NCBI GenBank assembly: GCA_028287235.1
Contig: JAQBQB010000006.1
Coordinates: 62,001-126,000, forward strand
Length of the DNA stretch: 64,000 nucleotides
Origin: Gemmatimonadota bacterium
GTDB taxonomy: Bacteria > Gemmatimonadota > Gemmatimonadetes > Gemmatimonadales > Gemmatimonadaceae
Direction: 5' to 3'
In this document: one piece after another, positions 4,493 to 16,000 of the stretch
Layout of the letters: the number at the start of each line of letters is the position of its first letter
Numbering within the stretch: the stretch's first letter is position 1
Program-made: the position numbers and the translations under genes
The notes under the pieces: model-generated
Databases searched by the model: none
The model's input: the letters and a program-made list of their open reading frames with translations, nothing else
What the model was told of the DNA's origin: nothing

Positions 4493-4524
4493 GTGCGCCT
4501 ACGCCGTGCGCCTACGCCGTGCGC
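4493..4524. repeat. 13-bp tandem repeat over gene ends
   Basis: Two perfect copies of GTGCGCCTACGCC (4493-4505 and 4506-4518) are followed by a partial third. The array sits between the convergent MFS and dehydrogenase genes and contains the dehydrogenase stop codon (4512-4514). Slippage here would change that protein's C-terminus. Confidence 0.7.
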
Positions 4525-5408
4525 TGCTTCGGCGCGTCCTCCGCTCCGGTACGGCGCATCGACACCGCACCCAGGGCGGCGACGTCACGATCGCCGTCGC
4601 CGCGTGCGACCGCCTCGAGAAGACTCTCATGCACGAGGTCGGCCAGCGGCATGGGTGCGCCGGCTGCATCGCTCGCGGCAAGCGCGAGACGCACGTCCTT
4701 GAGCAACAGTGAAATCTTGAACCCGGCAGGCTCGTACTGTTGCCGGGCGATCAACGCGCCATACGTCTTGTACGCCGGCGCCGCGAAGACCCCGTTCGTC
4801 AGGATGTCGAGCAGGTCCGCGGGCGCGATCCCGTGACGCCACGCCATCGCCGCCGCCTCGGCCATCGCTTCCACGGCGGCGCCGAGCATGACGTTGCCGG
4901 CGAGCTTGACGACGTTGGCCCGCTCGGGTTGGGTCCCGATCCACCACGTCCGCTGACCAATTACGTCGAACAGCGGCTCGACGCGGGACGTGACGTTCGA
5001 GTCGCCCGCGGCGACGATGGTGAGCTTTCCCTCTGCCGCGAGCTCGGGACGACCGAACACGGTCGCGGCGACGTACACGAGCCCCGCCGCTCGGTGCCGA
5101 GCAGCAAGGTCGCGCGCCAGCGCGACGGAGATCGTCGCCATGTTCACGTGCACCAGTCCTTTTGGCGCACCGTCGAGAAGGGGATCGATCACCGCGTGCA
5201 CGGCGTCATCGTCGGCGAGCATCGAGAACACCACGTCGCCGGCGAACGCCTCGCGAGCTGACGCGACTGGCCGGGCACCCTGGCGCGCGAGCGCATCCAC
5301 CGCGGCGCGATCCCGATTCCACACTCGCACCGTGTGGCCCGCGTTGACGAGCCTCGCCGCCACACGCGAGCCCATCATTCCGAGTCCAATGAAGCCGATG
5401 TCCATCAT
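4512..5408 (-). CDS. NAD(P)-dependent beta-hydroxyacid dehydrogenase family protein
   Basis: This 298-residue protein has the 3-hydroxyisobutyrate/6-phosphogluconate dehydrogenase fold. An N-terminal Rossmann motif, GFIGLGMMGSRVA (residues 5-17), is followed by the cofactor domain and an all-helical C-terminal domain. That domain holds VKLAGN near residue 169, the place of the catalytic Lys. Family members oxidise short beta-hydroxy acids or reduce semialdehydes (HIBADH, tartronate semialdehyde reductase, GLYR). The exact substrate is not readable here. AGGAAGGG lies before the ATGATG start. The gene stands alone between a convergent exporter and a divergent histidine kinase. Confidence 0.85.
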   Translation of the reverse strand: MMDIGFIGLGMMGSRVAARLVNAGHTVRVWNRDRAAVDALARQGARPVASAREAFAGDVVFSMLADDDAVHAVIDPLLDGAPKGLVHVNMATISVALARDLAARHRAAGLVYVAATVFGRPELAAEGKLTIVAAGDSNVTSRVEPLFDVIGQRTWWIGTQPERANVVKLAGNVMLGAAVEAMAEAAAMAWRHGIAPADLLDILTNGVFAAPAYKTYGALIARQQYEPAGFKISLLLKDVRLALAASDAAGAPMPLADLVHESLLEAVARGDGDRDVAALGAVSMRRTGAEDAPKQRTA

Positions 5409-6554: not shown

Positions 6555-8450
6555 ATGACTGCCGCGATGACCACCGAGATGCGGAAAACCGGAGTCGACG
6601 TCGTCGGCGACATGCCGTGGGGCACGCATTTTTGTGTCTTCTACGAGACGAAGGCGGACCTCCTCGAGACGCTGGTCTCGTACTGCAGGGCTGGACTCGA
6701 GAGCGACGAGTTCTGTCTCTGGGTCGTTGCCGCGCCGCTCACCGTGGACGACGCCAGGCAGGCGTTGCGGCGCGGGGTTCCCGACTTCGACCAATACTTG
6801 ATCGATCCCAGCATCGAGATCGTCGGCGCGCGCGACTGGTACCTTCAGGATGGGAAGTTCGATCTCCGCAGAGTGGTTGCCGGTTGGCACGAGAAGCTCG
6901 CGCACGCGTCGACGAGGGGGTACGCCGGCGTACGGGTGACCGGCGATACCGCCTGGCTCGAAAAGAACGACTGGAGGGATTTCTGCGACTATGAGGAATC
7001 GCTGAATCAATCCATTGCGAACCAGCGCTTGGCGGTGATGTGCACGTATCCGCTCGAGGCATGCGGAGCGTCTGAAATTCTGGACGTGGTGCAGACACAC
7101 CAATTCGCCCTCACGAAGCGACGCGGAAGCTGGGAGGTCATCGAAACCGCCGGGCACAAACAGGCGAAGGCTGAGATCAAGCGACTGAATGAGGATCTCG
7201 AACGGCGGGTCGTGGAGCGCACCAGCCAACTGACGGCGGCCAACCGGCAGCTCACCAAGGAGATCCGCGAACGTCAGCGCGCCGAAGAAGCGCTGCGGCG
7301 GAGTGAGGCGTATCTGACGGATGCGCAGCGGCTCACCCACACGGGCAGTTGGGCGTGCAACATCGCCACGCGAGAGGTGCTCCACTCGTCCGAGGAACAC
7401 TCTCGGCTGTACGGCTTCGATCCGGACAGCGGCTTGCCTTCGTTCGAGGAATTCCATCAGCGCATTCATCCCGACGATCAACAGCGGTTCATCGAAAGCC
7501 TGGAGACGGCGAACCGCACGCGAACGGACTTCGAGGTGGATTTCCGAGTCGTGCTTGCCGACGGCACGACGAAATTCATGCACGCGCTGGGACATCCGGT
7601 GCGCAACGCGTCTGGCGACGCCGGCGAATTCGCGGGCATCTCGATGGACGTGACCGAACAACTGCGGGCCGACCGGGAGCGCGAGACCCTCCGCCAGGCG
7701 CAGGCGGATCTCGCGCACGTCACCCGGGTGACGACGATGGGCGAGCTGACCGCGTCGCTGGCGCACGAGATCAAGCAACCGATTGCCGCGGCGGTGATCG
7801 GCGCGCAAACCTGCCTGCGGTGGCTTGGCCGCGAAGAGCCCGACGTGCCGGAGGCGCGCGAAGCCGCGTCGAGAATCCTCAACGACGTCACCCGCGCGTC
7901 CAACATCATCAACCGAATCCGCCAGCTCTTCCAGCGGGGTGCCCCGGAGCGGGAGCTGCTCGACGTCAACGATATCGTTCAGGAGATGATCGGACTGCTG
8001 CGCAGCGAGACGAGCCGGTATTCGATCTCGATCCGCAGCGAGTTTGCCAACGATCTTCCCAAGGTCATGGCCGACCGCGTGCAATTGCAGCAGGTGTTGA
8101 TGAACCTCATGCTCAACGGCATCGAAGCCATGAAGGACGTGGGCGCAGTCGGCGAGCTGACGATCGCGTCGCGGCGGGACGACGACCACCAGCTCGAGAT
8201 CTCCGTTGGCGACACGGGCGTGGGACTGCAGGCCGAACAGGCGGAGCAGGTCTTTCATGCGTTCTTTACCACCAAGCCTCAAGGCACCGGCATGGGACTG
8301 CCCATCAGCCGGTCCATCATCGAGTCTCACGGAGGCCGGTTGTGGGTGAGTCCCAATGCCGGACGGGGCGCAACGTTTCGGTTCACGTTGCCCATCGACC
8401 TGCCGGGGCCAGCTGATCCTTCATTCGAGCGAGCGCTCGAACAGCGCTAG
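6555..8450 (+). CDS. MEDS-PAS sensor histidine kinase
   Basis: This 631-residue soluble kinase is preceded by AGGAGG. Residues ~15-175 match the MEDS domain (methanogen/methylotroph, DcmR sensory): MPWGTHFCVFYETK near the start, with VTGDTAW and MCTYPLEA later. A coiled coil (~190-250) and a PAS domain (~255-370, LTHTGSWACNI and HPDDQQRF) follow. The transmitter has SLAHEIKQPIAA (His ~403), N box NLMLNGIEAM and DTGVGL. The transmitter resembles FixL/DctB-type kinases. MEDS domains are proposed to sense small C1-type or hydrophobic ligands; the ligand here is unknown. No cognate regulator is adjacent. Confidence 0.9.
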   Translation: MTAAMTTEMRKTGVDVVGDMPWGTHFCVFYETKADLLETLVSYCRAGLESDEFCLWVVAAPLTVDDARQALRRGVPDFDQYLIDPSIEIVGARDWYLQDGKFDLRRVVAGWHEKLAHASTRGYAGVRVTGDTAWLEKNDWRDFCDYEESLNQSIANQRLAVMCTYPLEACGASEILDVVQTHQFALTKRRGSWEVIETAGHKQAKAEIKRLNEDLERRVVERTSQLTAANRQLTKEIRERQRAEEALRRSEAYLTDAQRLTHTGSWACNIATREVLHSSEEHSRLYGFDPDSGLPSFEEFHQRIHPDDQQRFIESLETANRTRTDFEVDFRVVLADGTTKFMHALGHPVRNASGDAGEFAGISMDVTEQLRADRERETLRQAQADLAHVTRVTTMGELTASLAHEIKQPIAAAVIGAQTCLRWLGREEPDVPEAREAASRILNDVTRASNIINRIRQLFQRGAPERELLDVNDIVQEMIGLLRSETSRYSISIRSEFANDLPKVMADRVQLQQVLMNLMLNGIEAMKDVGAVGELTIASRRDDDHQLEISVGDTGVGLQAEQAEQVFHAFFTTKPQGTGMGLPISRSIIESHGGRLWVSPNAGRGATFRFTLPIDLPGPADPSFERALEQR

Positions 8451-8476
8451 CCAAGTCAAACCGAATGCTCTAGCGC
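8444..8476. terminator. Possible bidirectional hairpin at convergent gene ends
   Basis: GCGCTAG (8444-8450) and CTAGCGC (8470-8476) form a perfect 7-bp inverted repeat with a 19-nt loop. The stop codons of both convergent genes lie inside the arms. There is no clear T-run, so termination is only suggested. Confidence 0.3.
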
Positions 8477-9180
8477 GACCGCCCCGCCGCGGCGCGTTCC
8501 TTCATGACGACCGCCGCGGTTCCGACCGCCGCGGTCGTGAGCAAGAACGGCAACAGCGGCGCATAGAGGTGCGCGTACACCAACAGCAGCCCGCCCGCGG
8601 CGGCGCCCGAGAATAAGGAGATGAGAATGCCGGCGAGCAGCCGTCGTTCGTCGATGGTCGCCGACCAGTGCGCGAAGTCGCCGAAGAGCAGGATGAACGC
8701 TCCGGTCGCCGCCGTCGACAGCACGCCCTCCACGTGCAGCGTTTGAACCGCGACGCTTTGCATTCCCATCGCCAACGCCCAGAGCGCGAGGAGAGCGCGC
8801 GTCACGCGCATCGTCGGCTCGCCGCCGTTCGCGAACCAGACGATCAGGAATGCAGCGTGCGGAATCAGCGACGCACTGAGGACGATCGTCGCCTGGTGCG
8901 GCCAGGTGCCCGGGTGTTCGGACGGCTTGACCATGCGCGTCGCGAGATAGACCCCGGCCGCGAATGCAGCCATCGGAATTGCCACGCTCACCACACCGGG
9001 GCCGCCCGCGCCCGCCACTCCCAGCCCGAGAAACGCAACGTTCCCCGTCATGAACGCCGAAAAGATTCTTCCCAACGCGAGGTAGCTGATGGCGTCCACA
9101 GCGCCCGACGACACCGTCAACGCGTTCAGCAGCAGATCGCGAATCCTGAGCTCGACCGCCTCATCGCCCCAAGTCGCCAC
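8470..9180 (-). CDS. DUF1275 (YoaK-like) membrane protein
   Basis: This 236-residue protein has about six hydrophobic helices. Its N-terminal half carries the DUF1275 hallmarks SGAVDAISYLALGRIFSAFM and TGNVAFLGLG, with MGMQSVAVQTL in the middle. Function is not established for the family, which is sometimes annotated as a transporter. The start lies 4 nt after the oxalate decarboxylase stop, so it is almost certainly the third gene of that operon. By context it may move oxalate, formate or another small anion, but that is an inference. The C-terminus is short and basic. Confidence 0.85.
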   Translation of the reverse strand: MATWGDEAVELRIRDLLLNALTVSSGAVDAISYLALGRIFSAFMTGNVAFLGLGVAGAGGPGVVSVAIPMAAFAAGVYLATRMVKPSEHPGTWPHQATIVLSASLIPHAAFLIVWFANGGEPTMRVTRALLALWALAMGMQSVAVQTLHVEGVLSTAATGAFILLFGDFAHWSATIDERRLLAGILISLFSGAAAGGLLLVYAHLYAPLLPFLLTTAAVGTAAVVMKERAAAGRSR

Positions 9181-9184
9181 GCGC

Positions 9185-10348
9185 TCACCCGCTGACCACC
9201 GGCATCTTGGCCAGCGGAATCCCGTTCAGCACCGACTCGTCGACGTGCAGGTGCGCCCGCACCAGCTCGTGCGGCGTGAGCTTCAGCCATTGCGCCAGCG
9301 AGACGTCGGCGAAGTGGTCGCTGCGGAAGATCTCGAGAAACCGCAGCGTGGTGTCGCCGATGTTCTCGACGTAGTGCGCCATTGGAAACGGCACGGCGCC
9401 CACGTCGCCCGCCTGGAAATTGAACGTGCGCGCATTGTTGGTCGACGCGAACACCGTCATCCGCGCTCGCCCCTCGATGTAGTACTGCCACTCGTCCACG
9501 TTCGGATGCCAGTGCACCTCGCGCATACCGCCCGGTTCGACTTCCACCAGCGCGGCCGCGATCGTCTTCGACGCCTTGAAGCGCGACGAGTCGGTGATGC
9601 GGACCGCGCCGCCCCGCATGCGCATCGGCTCCTGCGCCAGCATGCGGTAGCTGAACGACTCGGGCACCGGCCCTGCCCCGGCGATGCGATCGGACTCGAG
9701 CGGTCCCGGCATCGGCGCCTGGAAAATCCAGAGATCCTTCTGCGGAATGCGATCGAACGCACTCTCCGCTACGCCGAAGTTCTTCGCCAGAATGTCCTTC
9801 GGCGTGTGCGCCATCAAGTCGCTGAGCAGGAAGGTCTCCTCCTCGGAGAAGAATCCGTCGTCGAAGACGAGCAGAAACTCGCACCCGTCGTCACCGAGTC
9901 CCTGGATCGAGTGCGGAATGCCCGCCGGGAAGTACCAGAGATCTCCCTCGCCGACGTCGTCCTGAAACGCGTGGCCATCCTGATCGATCGCCGTGATCCG
10001 CGCGAGGCCTTTGAGCATGTAGGCCCACTCGGCCGCCTTGTGCCAGTGCATCTCGCGCACACCGCCGGGCGTGAGCCGCATGTTGACGCCCGCCACCTCG
10101 GTCGCGATGGGCAGCTCGCGCGCCGTCGTCTCCCGGCCCCAACCGCCATCGGACAGATGCATGTGACTGTCGGCGAACGACCATCGCAGGTTCGCGACCG
10201 TGCCGTGGTCCACCGACGGAGGCACCATCAGATCCGGGTTCTCGGCTTCCCGCGCCGGATTCGTCGGTCCGATGATGGTCGCACCTCGGGCGCCGCTGAT
10301 CGGCTGCCGTCGAACGGGGCGCTCGGTACGTTCGCGCTCGCGATTCAT
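9185..10348 (-). CDS. oxdC: Bicupin oxalate decarboxylase
   Basis: This 387-residue bicupin matches Bacillus OxdC along its whole length. Oxalate decarboxylase converts oxalate to formate and CO2 with Mn. Cupin 1 has HWHKAAEWAYM (~100) and GIPHSIQ; cupin 2 has HWHPNVDEWQYY (~277) and MAHYVENIGD. These supply the three-His-one-Glu metal set twice. The active-site lid, SENS in Bacillus, reads SEEE here. It keeps the proton-donor Glu that distinguishes decarboxylases from oxalate oxidases. No signal peptide is visible, so the protein is probably cytoplasmic. The ATG overlaps the end of the upstream oxidoreductase gene by 4 nt, so the two are co-translated. Confidence 0.93.
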   Translation of the reverse strand: MNRERERTERPVRRQPISGARGATIIGPTNPAREAENPDLMVPPSVDHGTVANLRWSFADSHMHLSDGGWGRETTARELPIATEVAGVNMRLTPGGVREMHWHKAAEWAYMLKGLARITAIDQDGHAFQDDVGEGDLWYFPAGIPHSIQGLGDDGCEFLLVFDDGFFSEEETFLLSDLMAHTPKDILAKNFGVAESAFDRIPQKDLWIFQAPMPGPLESDRIAGAGPVPESFSYRMLAQEPMRMRGGAVRITDSSRFKASKTIAAALVEVEPGGMREVHWHPNVDEWQYYIEGRARMTVFASTNNARTFNFQAGDVGAVPFPMAHYVENIGDTTLRFLEIFRSDHFADVSLAQWLKLTPHELVRAHLHVDESVLNGIPLAKMPVVSG

Positions 10349-12963
10349 GGATGATTCTCGGTTGGAAGAAATGTCTGCGCCGCCTCGATGCGGTCATAGT
10401 CGAACCGGCGCGCACTCGCCGACGGTGCAACGGTGATGATGACGTACTTCGACGTTGGCGTATTGCTGCGGTCCGCCACGCTGTTCACCGGGACGAGCAC
10501 GTTCGCTTCCGGGAAATAGGTCGCGGCGCATCGCCGCGGAATGTCGAACGGCACGACGATGAACGTCCGCGACGTGCGCGTCTCCCCCTCGAAGTGGCTC
10601 GTGAGATCGACGACCTGCTGCGCCTTCAGGCCGAGCTCGTCGACGTCCGCCGGGTTCATGAAGATCACGCGCCGCTCGTCGTGTATGCCGCGATACCGGT
10701 CCTGAAGTCCGTACACCGTGGTGTTGAACTGATCGTGGCTTCGCACCGACATCATCACGAGCTGGCCGGGCTCCAACTTCGTGCGCGGAATTGGGTGACA
10801 GGTGAACACCGCCTTGCCCGCGTGCGTCGACCACTCGCGCTTGTCGCGCGGCAGATTGGGGAGATAGAACCCGCCCGGCTCGCGCACTCGCGCGTTGAAG
10901 TCGCTGAAGCCAGGGACTACGCGCGCGACGTGATCGCGGATGCGATCGTAGTCGGCCACGAGCCCATCCCAATCCACGGTGGAGCGCGCCCCGAGCGTCG
11001 CCTTCGCCATGCGCGCCACGATCACCGGCTCGGCGAGCAGGTTGCCGTTTGGCGGATCGAGCCGGCCCTGCGACTTGCTCACGATGCCCATCGAGTTCTC
11101 GACGGTCACGAACTGGTCGCGTCCCGATTGCACGTCGCGCTCCGAGCGGCCGATCGTGGGAAGGATCAGCGCCTCCTCGCCGGTGACGAGGTGCGATCGG
11201 TTCAGCTTGATCGCGACATGTGCAGTGAGCACGCACCGCTTCATCCCGGCCGCGCCATACGCCGTGTCGGGCGTGGCCGAGAGGAAGTTGCCGCCCATGC
11301 CGAAGAAGACCTTCACCTTTCCGGCGTGCATCGCCCGAAGCGTTTCAACCGTGTCGTAGCCATGCTTCTGCGGCGGGTTGAAGTTGAACTCCTTGCCGAG
11401 CGCGCCGAGAAACTGCGGCGTCATCCGCTCCCACACGCCCATCGTCCGGTCGCCCTGCACGTTGCTGTGCCCACGCACGGGCAGCGCGCCAGCCCCACGG
11501 CGGCCGATCGCTCCCTTCAGTAGCAGCAGGTTCACGCATTCCTGAATCGAGCTCACCGCGTTCTTGTGCTGCGTGAGCCCCATCGCCCACGCGACGACCA
11601 GCCGGTCGGTGCTCATCACCACTCGCGCCGCGTCGGCGATCTGCTCGCGCGAGATGCCGCTCTCCTCGACGATCACGTTCCAGTCGGCCGCCCGCAGCTG
11701 CTCGACGTATGCGTTGTAACAGACGGTGTGCTCGCGGATGAACGCGTGGTCGAACACCGTGCCGGGCGCCGCGTCCTCGGCGGCGAGCATCTCCTTCATG
11801 ATGCCCTGAAGCACGGCGACGTCGCCGTTGATCCGGACCGGCAGATGGAGATCGGCGATCGGTGTGCTGCGATGGGTGAGCACCTGCAACACCTGTTGCG
11901 GATGTTGAAAGCGCACCAGCCCCGTTTCGCGAAGCGGATTGATCGCGATGATCTTCGCGCCGTTCTTCTTGGCGAGCTGCAACGCCGTCAGCATGCGTGG
12001 GTGACACGTTCCCGGATTGTGTCCGATGTCGATGAGTACGCCGGCCTGATGCACGTCGTCGAGTGTCGCCGTTCCCTTGCCGATGCCGATGGAATCGGTG
12101 AGCGCGGTGCCGCTCGACTCGTGACACATGTTCGAGCAGTCGGGCAGGTTGTTGGTGCCGAGCTGCCGCGCGAAGAGTTGGTAGAGAAAGGCCGTCTCGT
12201 TCGCAGTCCGGCCCGACGTATAAAACGCCGCCTCGTTCGGATCGCCGAGCGCGTTGAGCCTGTCGGCGATTAGAGAAAACGCATCGTCCCACGAGATCGG
12301 CTCGTAGTGCGTCGCATCCTTGCGGAGCACCATCGGCTGCGTGATCCGCCCCTGCTGGCCGAGCCAGTAGTCGCTTCGCTGCGAGAGCTCGGCCACGCTG
12401 TTGTCGCGGAAGAACTCGGGCGCGATGCGCTTGCGGGTGTTCTCTTCGCTCGCCGCCTTCGCGCCGTTCTCGCAGAATTCGGTGTGCGTGCGCTCGCCGT
12501 TCGGCGGATCGGGCCACGCACACCCCGGACAGTCGAACCCGTCGGTCTGATTGAGCTGGAGGAGCACCCGGGCTCCCTTCACCGCGCCGAGGTTCTTGTA
12601 CGCGAACTTGATCGACTCGACGATCGCAGGCACTCCGGCGGCGACTGTCGATCGTTTGCCGATCACGCCGTTCGTGCCGGTCAGCACTTCCGGCGCCATG
12701 GCCAGCAGCGGCTCGCCGTGGCTCGCTTCATCGCCCGCCACCGCGGAGGCATCGCCCTGCTCGGCGGTCATCTCGCTGCGGATCCGATGCTCGCTCGAGA
12801 GATCGACTTTCGCGATCTCCCACGAGTTCATCTGGCGATCCGAATGCCTGCCGTGGATCGCGCCGTGCTCGTGGTCCGTGGGGCCGCGGGCGGTGTGGTC
12901 CGAGGCCAGCTCGCGCTCGGTCGGGCGCGGCTTGTCGGTATCGGCGTCGGAGTTGGTCGCCAT
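10345..12963 (-). CDS. FdhF/YdeP-family molybdopterin oxidoreductase, probable formate dehydrogenase alpha
   Basis: This 872-residue molybdopterin oxidoreductase is of the FdhF/YdeP type. An iron-sulfur site is suggested by DGFDCPGCAWPD (~143) and a following FCENGAK Cys. The molybdenum ligand position is Cys in DCSNMCHESSG (~277), so no selenocysteine is needed. HNPGTCHPRM and RGHSNVQGDR are further family motifs. The first ~100 residues before IKFAYKNLG are an acidic, low-complexity extension, and the true start could be internal. YdeP itself has no proven reaction. Formate oxidation is inferred from the 4-nt overlap with oxalate decarboxylase, whose product is formate. No separate electron-transfer subunit gene is adjacent. 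Confidence 0.85.
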   Translation of the reverse strand: MATNSDADTDKPRPTERELASDHTARGPTDHEHGAIHGRHSDRQMNSWEIAKVDLSSEHRIRSEMTAEQGDASAVAGDEASHGEPLLAMAPEVLTGTNGVIGKRSTVAAGVPAIVESIKFAYKNLGAVKGARVLLQLNQTDGFDCPGCAWPDPPNGERTHTEFCENGAKAASEENTRKRIAPEFFRDNSVAELSQRSDYWLGQQGRITQPMVLRKDATHYEPISWDDAFSLIADRLNALGDPNEAAFYTSGRTANETAFLYQLFARQLGTNNLPDCSNMCHESSGTALTDSIGIGKGTATLDDVHQAGVLIDIGHNPGTCHPRMLTALQLAKKNGAKIIAINPLRETGLVRFQHPQQVLQVLTHRSTPIADLHLPVRINGDVAVLQGIMKEMLAAEDAAPGTVFDHAFIREHTVCYNAYVEQLRAADWNVIVEESGISREQIADAARVVMSTDRLVVAWAMGLTQHKNAVSSIQECVNLLLLKGAIGRRGAGALPVRGHSNVQGDRTMGVWERMTPQFLGALGKEFNFNPPQKHGYDTVETLRAMHAGKVKVFFGMGGNFLSATPDTAYGAAGMKRCVLTAHVAIKLNRSHLVTGEEALILPTIGRSERDVQSGRDQFVTVENSMGIVSKSQGRLDPPNGNLLAEPVIVARMAKATLGARSTVDWDGLVADYDRIRDHVARVVPGFSDFNARVREPGGFYLPNLPRDKREWSTHAGKAVFTCHPIPRTKLEPGQLVMMSVRSHDQFNTTVYGLQDRYRGIHDERRVIFMNPADVDELGLKAQQVVDLTSHFEGETRTSRTFIVVPFDIPRRCAATYFPEANVLVPVNSVADRSNTPTSKYVIITVAPSASARRFDYDRIEAAQTFLPTENHP

Positions 12964-13023
12964 GATGGTGAATCTCGGTCGTCCCGGCGACGCCGTCTTG
13001 AATCGGATTGTTGTGCGGAACGA

Positions 13024-13056
13024 CACGTCAAGCCGTACACATGTACTCTTGACGTG
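13024..13056. promoter_or_regulatory. 33-bp dyad between oxalate operon and sensor kinase gene
   Basis: CACGTCAAG (13024-13032) and CTTGACGTG (13048-13056) form a perfect 9-bp inverted repeat. Nested inside is a second one, GTACA-CA-TGTAC (13035-13046). Each outer arm contains an outward-facing TTGACG that could serve as a -35 element, one for the oxalate operon on the minus strand and one for the sensor kinase on the plus strand. No good -10 hexamer is obvious. The position and symmetry suggest a shared operator. Confidence 0.6.
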
Positions 13057-13085
13057 ACCATATGCTCCCCTGCCATCTTCGGACC

Positions 13086-16000
13086 ATGTTGCGGGCGTGC
13101 TCATCCCGAAGGACGGGACCGTGGTGGCGTGTCATCGTCTCGCTCGCCTGGCGAGCGGGAGCGATCGTCATCGCGCCGCCTATTGCCGCGCAGCAGCTGC
13201 CCTCGTCGGTCGCCGAGTATCAGCACGACCGCTGGCTGTTGCGCGACGGGCTGCCCGGCACTCGCGTCGAAGCGATTCTCCAGAGTCCCGACGGATATCT
13301 CTGGTTCTCCACGCTGAACGGACTCGTTCGTTTCGACGGCGTGCGCTTCTCGATCTTCGATCGAACCAATACACCCGCGCTCCGCGACGCCGACGCCTTC
13401 CCCACGCGTCCGCTGCTCGTCGATCGCCACGGTGTCATGTGGATCGGCACCACCGCGGGGCTCGTCCAATACGAGCACGGCGAGTTGCGCCATGTTCGCA
13501 ATTCGGGCGATGCGCGCGGTGCCAACGTCGGCGAGATCGCCGGCATGGTGGAGGATCGCGCCGGCACGCTCTGGGCGTACGACTCGTCCACCGTCGGCGG
13601 GTTGCTCGTGATGCGCGACGGCCGCTTCCAGCTTGCCGCGGAACGATCCGCGCTGCATCACCGCATCACGGCCCTGGCCGCGGACAAGAGCGGCGCGCTC
13701 TGGATCGGAACCTCGGGAGGCGGGGTCGTTCGAATGAGCGGCGCGACCGCCACGACGTTCACGACGCACACGGGGCTGCCCGACAATTTCGTGACGTCGC
13801 TCTTCGTCGCCGCCGACAGCACCGTCTGGGTCGGTACGGAGCGTGGATTCTCGCGCCTCGAGCATGGTGTGCTCGTGCCGCACTCGCTCGCCAGCCTCGG
13901 CGGCACGCGCGGCATGGTGCGAACGATCGCCGAAGCGCGGGACGGCGGGATCTGGCTCGGCACCGACGACTATGGGCTGCTTCGCTGGCGGAACGGCCAG
14001 CTCTCGTCGTACGCGATGCACGAGCAGTTCGTCTCCGATCTCACCGACAACCTCGTGACGTCGGTCTTCGTCGATCGCGAAGGGACCTTGTGGGCCGGCA
14101 CGGGCGTGGGCCTCGACGAGTTTCGGACGGCGAGCTTCGTGACGTTCAGCGCCGGCCAGGGCCTGCCGACGATGACACCCGGAGCGCTGCACTGGAGTGG
14201 CGACCAACTCTGGTTGGCGCCAAAGACAGGTGGGCTCGTGCACGGTACTCCGGGACGATTCGTCGCCGCGAGCCTTCGCGGGCTGGACGGAGTCCGCGTG
14301 TTCGGCATGGCGCCCGGCCGGGACGGAGGACTCTGGCTCTCGTCCACCGATGGAGTATTCCACTACCGCGACGGGACGGTGCAACGGCGGACTGCGCGCG
14401 ATGGACTCTCCGGTGGCTGGGTCCTCGCCGTGCTCGAGGATCGTGACGGGCGCATCTGGGCGGGTACGCTGGCCGGCGGTGTCCATCGCCTCGACAGTGC
14501 CGGCGCCAGGTCGTTCACTACTGCGAACGGCCTCGCCGGCGATCGCGTGCGCAGTCTCCTCGAAGACCGGCAGGGTGCGGTTTGGATTGGCACGGCCGAC
14601 GGCATCTCGCGAGTTCGCCATGATTCCGTTACCTCGTTCTTCACCGAGACACGGGGGCGCGGACCGAGTGTGACGTCGATCTACGAGGATCGCCGCGGCC
14701 GGCTCTGGTTCGGCACCTTCCGCGGATTGGCGCGGATCGTCGACGGCCGGGTAACGGTCATCGACCTGCACCACGGACTTCCCGGCGACGTGGTTGCCTC
14801 GATCACCGAAGACGACGACGACGGACTGTGGCTCAGCACCAGCCGCGGCATCGTCCGCATCTCCGCCGACGAAGCCGCCGCGGTGACCGAGGGACGCGCG
14901 CCCGCGGTGCACGCGACGACCTTCGGCACGCTCGACGGCTTGGTCTCGGCCACGCCAGTGTGGAGAGCACAACCCTCGTCGCTGCGCTCGCCCGACGGAA
15001 GGCTGTGGTTCTCGACGCCGCGCGGACTCGCCGTGTTCGATCCCAAACGCCTCGCGCACAACGCGGTTCCTCCGCCCGTACGCGTGGAGGAAGCGCTCGT
15101 CGATGGACAACCGGTGTCGCTGACCGCGCTGTCGCTACCGCCGCGCGCACGGCGGCTCGATCTGCGCTACACCGGGTTGAGCCTGCGCGCTCCGCAGCGC
15201 GTGCGCTTCCGGTACAGGCTCGAAGGGTTCGACACGAGCTGGGTCAACGCGGAGACCGCGCGGTCGGTATCGTACACGAACCTCGCGCCGGGTAACTATC
15301 GCTTTCGTGTCGTCGCAAGCAACGACGACGGCGTCTGGAACGAGCGAGGTGCCGCGCTCGACTTCCGCGTGCTTCCGTCGTTCTATCAAGCCGCATGGTT
15401 TCGCGCGCTGCTCGTGCTTGCCGCGCTGCTCGCGGGTTGGGGCGTCTTGCGTCTGCGCCAGAAACAGCTGGAACGGCGCTTCGCCCTCGTGCTCGCGGAG
15501 CGCAACCGCATGGCGCGCGAGATACACGACACGCTGCTCCAGGGATTCACCGGCATCACGCTACAGCTGCAGCCGGCGTCACGGCTCGTGATGGATGCGC
15601 CGGACCGCGCCCGCGAGCACATCGATCGCATCCTCGCGCTCGCCGACAAGACGCTGCTCGACGCGCGGCGGGCCGTGTGGGACATGCGCGCTCCGGCGCT
15701 TCAGAAGGACAGCCTCGCCGTGGCGTTCGAGGACGTCGTCCGCCACGCCGCCGACGGCAGCGGTTTGGCGGTCCGCATTCGCGTGGTTGGAAAACCGAGG
15801 CGCCTGTCGCCCGCGGCGGAGATGGCCCTGTTTCGTATCGGACAGGAAGCGGTGGCCAACGCTGTGAAGCACGCCAACCCCCGCACCGTGGACGTGGAGC
15901 TCACGTACGACCGGCGAGCCGTGCGACTCGTCGTGCGCGACGACGGCAGAGGGTTCGATCCCCTCGAGAGCTTCACCGGGGCCGGAGGACACTGGGGTCT

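Follow-up and report, generated by a model that had tools for sequence, protein, structure and literature searches.

A three-gene operon of a Gemmatimonadota bacterium as a candidate unit for two-step oxalate oxidation

We analysed a 64,000-nucleotide (nt) stretch of DNA from a soil bacterium of the Gemmatimonadota (assembly GCA_028287235.1, contig JAQBQB010000006.1, positions 62,001 to 126,000; hereafter the window), taken from a genome of 5.73 Mb in 31 contigs. The subject of this report is an operon of three minus-strand genes, which encode in order an FdhF/YdeP-family oxidoreductase (YdeP below), the oxalate decarboxylase OxdC and a DUF1275 membrane protein (Table 1). A sequence-only reading of this DNA had described an oxidoreductase gene overlapping oxdC by 4 nt, with DUF1275 following after 4 nt. 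The coordinates confirm both distances exactly (the spacer occupies 9181-9184), and the three family assignments made at the same time held as well, each protein scoring above the cut-off of its family model. The 4-nt overlap and the 4-nt gap imply a single mRNA on which translation of the three genes would be coupled.

Table 1. Genes and other features of the operon, in window coordinates
Feature	Position	Strand	Basis	Proposed role
FdhF/YdeP-family molybdopterin oxidoreductase, 872 aa	10345..12963	-	TIGR01701	putative formate dehydrogenase
ATGA overlap of oxidoreductase stop and oxdC start (4 nt)	10345..10348	-	coordinates	
OxdC, bicupin oxalate decarboxylase, 387 aa	9185..10348	-	TIGR03404	
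DUF1275 (YoaK-type) membrane protein, 236 aa, GTG start	8470..9180	-	PF06912	putative oxalate/formate carrier
Divergent intergenic region, 98 nt, facing a sensor kinase gene	12964..13061	no strand	coordinates	candidate promoter region

The oxidoreductase scored 906.2 bits against TIGR01701 (cut-off 582.15), covering model positions 2-743 of 744, and fell below the cut-off of the YdeP acid-resistance equivalog NF007406 (689.3 bits vs 1473). Among solved structures its top sequence matches were formate dehydrogenases (FDHs) and YjgC, with nitrate reductases ranking lower. Cys280-His281 and Arg497 align with FDH active-site residues and did not vary across the 57 YdeP proteins compared; an N-terminal three-cysteine motif (C145, C148 and C164) was also present in all 57. 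On these grounds the window oxidoreductase is proposed to be an FDH. The predicted YdeP structure was too poor for fold comparison (mean predicted local distance difference test score, pLDDT, 39.5 over 6 sequences). Residues 1 to ~107 (12640-12963, minus strand) form an extension preceding the TIGR01701 domain, which is conserved in the loci L109 and L110 and had no match in Pfam or NCBIfam at the cut-offs applied. The reading frame (13104..10345, minus strand) stays open for another 47 codons upstream of 12963; the window protein resembles its nearest relative, L109, from residue 4 onward, beside the methionine of L109 itself, which supports the start at 12963. No partner subunit is encoded next to the gene. 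The one FdhD gene of this genome is located elsewhere than the operon, ~3 kb from an FDH-like gene (G000:C23:191555-193426; loci L002 and L118) with an in-frame TGA at the selenocysteine position of FDH H.

OxdC scored 562.6 bits against TIGR03404 (cut-off 254.2), and its residues 15-385 align with B. subtilis OxdC structures (E 1.9e-153). In this alignment both cupins keep the His/His/Glu/His set of metal ligands, together with the conserved arginine before each motif. Oxalate decarboxylase activity is the established reaction of the family, and we infer it for the window protein. A simple pattern search of the first 60 residues found no RRxxx motif of the kind seen in twin-arginine translocation signals, which points to an enzyme that is probably cytosolic and would depend on oxalate import.

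The DUF1275 protein matched PF06912 with 96.5 bits (gathering cut-off 25.4). In the TCDB, DUF1275 stands as an uncharacterised family with a relationship to the six-helix unit of the major facilitator superfamily (PMC7778945), and its function is described as unidentified in a recent paper (PMC12316277). The predicted structure (mean pLDDT 56.9, 7 sequences) was again too poor for fold comparison. DUF1275 neighbours OxdC in several phyla, and from this recurrent neighbourhood we suggest that it probably brings oxalate in or swaps oxalate for formate; the anion-transporter role suggested by the sequence-only reading thereby gains support as a candidate. A survey of 200 genomes returned 22 Oxc matches in 15 genomes (8 of them above the cut-off), and a DUF1275 gene starts directly downstream of Oxc in one locus (L255), a weak observation with flanks of only ~1.5 kb.

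We next measured how often the three genes lie together in an unbiased draw of 248 genomes from the family of Bradyrhizobium sp. S69. OxdC was found in 74 of these genomes, 46 of which also carried YdeP. YdeP lay within 1 kb of OxdC in 7 of the 74 genomes, compared to 0.075 expected, within 5 kb in 8 (0.185), within 10 kb in 16 (0.323) and within 15 kb in 17 (0.462). DUF1275 lay within 1 kb in 13 genomes (one a fragment), compared to 0.081 expected, and within 10 kb in 18 (0.478); intersection of the two lists gave 12 genomes with both genes within 10 kb. These expectations assume uniform placement, rounded genome sizes and independent genomes, and related genomes are not independent. The YdeP distances were counted over 65 YdeP places and 91 OxdC places, the latter from 93 rows after the two halves of the split OxdC in G799, and likewise in G850, had been joined by their coordinates; those for DUF1275 were counted over 100 of 101 rows, one split G913 piece being dropped, and the G928 match is a fragment with a stop. 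Co-location of OxdC with YdeP and with DUF1275 is beyond chance.

The arrangements in which these genes recur are diverse and unrelated to one another. Annotated Phyllobacterium plasmids carry OxdC, a formate/nitrite transporter (FNT) and FdhF/YdeP in a row, and five Inquilinus-group loci share this order (FNT against PF01226, 221.9 bits). On a Bradyrhizobium plasmid YdeP is divergent from OxdC, and next in the row come the cytochrome bd genes (cydAB) and fdhD. Locus L139 brings together fdhD, DUF1275 (18-nt gap), cydA, cydB, OxdC and YdeP; L140 has a DUF1275-OxdC tandem with YdeP and cydA nearby, and in L175 selB, OxdC and YdeP all run in one direction. A canonical FDH stands directly upstream of OxdC in L142, L143, L166, L067 and L063/L138. 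The FDH3-type beta (323.3 bits, cut-off 240) and gamma (156.5 bits, cut-off 115.85) subunits of L142 both pass their models, and TIGR01591 is the best family for the alpha subunits of L142, L143 and L067, yet these score below its cut-off. FdhD immediately follows OxdC in L170, and the Granulicella plasmid L221 has a weaker FDH-like match (96 bits) and FdhD beside OxdC. Plasmid neighbourhoods cover 16 of 86 OxdC-matching records, three of them unannotated. OxdC occurred in 5 of 337 genomes from the class of Inquilinus and in 9 of 297 Acidobacteriota genomes. One record titled Mycobacterium sp. KBS0706 (L085) falls inside Inquilinus limosus in the YdeP tree and has the same gene order, and is thus probably misnamed.

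Taken together, the recurring layouts and the invariant active-site residues lend good support to a functional link between OxdC and FDH genes. We put at roughly three in four the probability that the window operon is a two-step oxalate oxidation unit, with a route from oxalate through formate to CO2 deduced from gene content and residue conservation. OxdC would split oxalate into formate and CO2, consuming one proton. The FdhF/YdeP enzyme, which from its sequence and characterised relatives would first be sulfurated by FdhD from its separate locus in this genome, would then convert formate into CO2 at a bis-molybdopterin guanine dinucleotide centre holding molybdenum or tungsten, with Cys280, His281 and Arg497. 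Electrons would probably pass to the quinone pool or to a soluble carrier; the quinone pool is suggested because cytochrome bd genes neighbour OxdC and YdeP elsewhere. DUF1275 would probably supply oxalate import or oxalate/formate exchange.

Several observations weigh against this reading. For none of the three genes do the nearest relatives carry the complete trio, and no other locus examined showed precisely the order YdeP-OxdC-DUF1275. The seven genomes with YdeP within 1 kb represent two lineages by the YdeP tree, and in two of them OxdC is split over two frames. YdeP or a canonical FDH-alpha stood within 7.5 kb of OxdC in 8/80, 10/83, 0/10 and 3/16 loci of four sets, some loci belonging to two sets (e.g. 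L063 and L138); the second set comprises 83 of the 91 OxdC places of the draw, and the third is Acidobacteriota at the thresholds used. Most OxdC loci therefore have neither gene within that distance (72/80, 73/83, 10/10 and 13/16), a whole run of Methylobacterium loci among them. As for the window itself, the oxidoreductase falls short of the canonical FDH-alpha model TIGR01591 (243.1 bits vs 666.25), FdhD is not adjacent to YdeP (locus L119), and the genome already holds a second FDH-like gene, the one with the in-frame TGA.

Some of the same genes would also suit a module for acid or general stress, in which the substrate of FdhF/YdeP is not formate and OxdC merely consumes protons. Consistent with this explanation, YdeP of E. 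coli plays a part in acid resistance although no reaction is known for it (PMC4283999), oxdC of B. subtilis is acid-inducible (PMC2788229), and stress genes lie near several OxdC loci: Phyllobacterium zundukense, for instance, has a starvation-protection protein there, and Granulicella has both general and universal stress proteins. In contrast, formate is indicated by the FdhD genes, FNT channels and canonical FDH operons found next to OxdC, and also by the invariant FDH active-site residues, and formate oxidation could itself be an acid-resistance step. We regard a stress module of this kind as unlikely, although it is the strongest of the competing explanations.

The ancestry of the three genes raises a second alternative. 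The best 80 of 172 OxdC relatives were fetched, and the eight nearest loci (75-85% identity) have DUF1275 downstream on the same strand in 6 cases, 5 of them within ~130 nt. YdeP was present in the retrieved DNA of one of these eight (L018, 6.7 kb away), and five of the eight genomes had no YdeP above threshold. The window's OxdC with DUF1275 is nearest to such pairs of other phyla (Acidobacteriota and Verrucomicrobiota), and OxdC was found in 5 of 395 genomes of the window's own phylum, the other four being only 39-43% identical. YdeP occurred in 18 of 200 genomes of that phylum, with FdhD beside it in 13 of the 18 loci. The nearest YdeP (L095, 78% identity) comes from the same family and is the sister in the tree with support 100; its genome has no OxdC, and so this YdeP is not OxdC-linked. 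Conservation of the trio by descent was rejected, the nearest YdeP and the nearest OxdC-DUF1275 relatives being unlinked and in different phyla. Since the nearest relatives differ in this way, own family for one and other phyla for the other, the operon is best read as a resident YdeP that would have been joined by an OxdC-DUF1275 pair from elsewhere.

These same relationships would fit a recent juxtaposition confined to one genome, in which a mobile pair of OxdC and DUF1275 arrived downstream of a resident YdeP and has nothing but the transcript in common with it. We consider this improbable, and more so than the stress module, because these partners come together again and again in other genomes, at counts far higher than chance predicts. 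In addition, the label of OxdC linkage needs at least 10 changes on the tree of 57 YdeP proteins (shuffled mean ~18.5), with linked meaning within ~10 kb, such that L245 (12.6 kb) and L130 (11.7 kb) count as unlinked, and L117 counted as linked on the basis of an OxdC-like fragment. By this measure the pairing is one that would have been formed or lost many times, not inherited once. The sequence-only reading had named adjacency absent in relatives as a refutation. Adjacency is indeed absent in the closest ones, but the refutation fails on a wider view, because the YdeP-OxdC pair recurs; the formate link owes its support to this recurrence elsewhere and not to the nearest relatives, which are without the trio.

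OxdC-like genes that are split or shortened lie right beside YdeP at G799:C1:2690354-2691459, G850:C32:48481-49586 and L117:36-1124, and may reflect decay or sequencing error. A sulfite-oxidase-type molybdopterin protein is encoded near OxdC in the Verrucomicrobiota locus L018 (4204-5271, family-tested), and a similar gene, judged from the start of its sequence only, lies near OxdC at L014:9203-9490 (Verrucomicrobiota).

Changes in the OxdC lid shift the enzyme towards oxidase. The window lid is SEEET, compared to SENST in B. subtilis, and keeps the lid glutamate (E162 of the B. subtilis enzyme). The SEEET lid is shared by seven relatives of this OxdC, and every one of the 25 most frequent lid patterns listed has glutamate in second place, 15 gapped rows aside. 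That the window protein has oxalate oxidase activity or takes a different acid as its substrate, yielding no formate and leaving its neighbour with a different role, is very improbable given the retained glutamate, two intact metal sites, the strong family score and a lid that is variable across the family.

Upstream, the operon is flanked by a divergent sensor kinase gene (13062+) and a response regulator gene (16186+), and the region between operon and kinase is the likely operon promoter region; no match to a sigma-70-type promoter was found in 8350-13300. On the other flank a MEDS-domain sensor kinase gene (6555-8450) is convergent to DUF1275, with 19 nt between the gene ends. A relative of this kinase (51% identity) lies ~7 kb from OxdC at L011:9231-10163. 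Also near the operon, at 4512-5408, is a 3-hydroxyisobutyrate-dehydrogenase-like gene, relatives of which (44-45% identical) stand near YdeP in two Verrucomicrobiota contigs (L116:8553-9443 and L117:8608-9498).

Bacterial oxalate use is usually described via oxalate activated with coenzyme A (CoA). A recurrent CoA-independent module of OxdC and FDH, if true, would add a second oxalate route in soil bacteria. It would also give FdhF/YdeP enzymes, whose E. coli member is still without a demonstrated reaction, a natural substrate context, and would make the role of DUF1275 directly testable. What is likely new here is the recurrent OxdC-FDH-DUF1275 module, with DUF1275 as its likely carrier; the chemistry itself is known. 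The role of DUF1275 is the freshest part, the operon being otherwise mostly explained. A broader proposal is tentative, and we think it rather doubtful in full: that OxdC-linked DUF1275 proteins may be oxalate/formate carriers and that OxdC, FDH (YdeP-type or canonical), FdhD, DUF1275 and cytochrome bd may form an aerobic module using oxalate as electron donor without CoA activation. If true, this would be the first function for the DUF1275 family.

The FDH of fungi uses NAD and contains no metal. In white-rot fungi FDH is described together with oxalate metabolism (PMC11045627), and oxalate decarboxylase with NAD-dependent FDH carries out the same chemistry there, oxalate to formate to CO2, without an operon. 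No report of bacterial OxdC-FDH gene clusters appeared among the papers listed in searches of open-licence literature, from which many journals are absent.

Closer to the window oxidoreductase, PP_0256 and PP_4596 of Pseudomonas putida belong to the same family and are reported as FDHs on the basis of formate induction, deletion and complementation (PMC10308882). PP_0256 is cotranscribed with fdhD, whereas the window YdeP has no adjacent fdhD, and the excerpts of that paper describe no oxdC partner for either protein. Fdh4A of Methylobacterium extorquens, again of this family, is likewise reported as an FDH and is credited with supporting the oxidation of formate on methanol, as cited in PMC3720670 and PMC10308882; the excerpts do not describe it as oxalate-linked, and unlike the window, the Methylobacterium loci fetched have no YdeP within 7.5 kb of OxdC. 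The statement of the sequence-only reading that the YdeP subfamily has no settled reaction is therefore outdated. A YdeP-oxalate link was also already proposed in 2013-2014: YdeP was suggested to oxidise formate derived from oxalate in the oxalate-induced acid tolerance of E. coli (PMC3720670), with a similar role proposed in PMC4283999. The E. coli scheme resembles the window model in that formate arises from oxalate and YdeP is the proposed oxidiser. In contrast to the window, E. coli splits oxalate by the CoA route (YfdW/YfdU) and not by OxdC, and ydeP lies outside that operon. Lastly, in the uctB-oxc-uctC-duf1275 region of Acetobacter aceti a duf1275 gene lies beside oxc (PMC3720670), placing DUF1275 next to oxalate-degrading genes as in the window, although in a CoA-dependent system rather than one built on OxdC.

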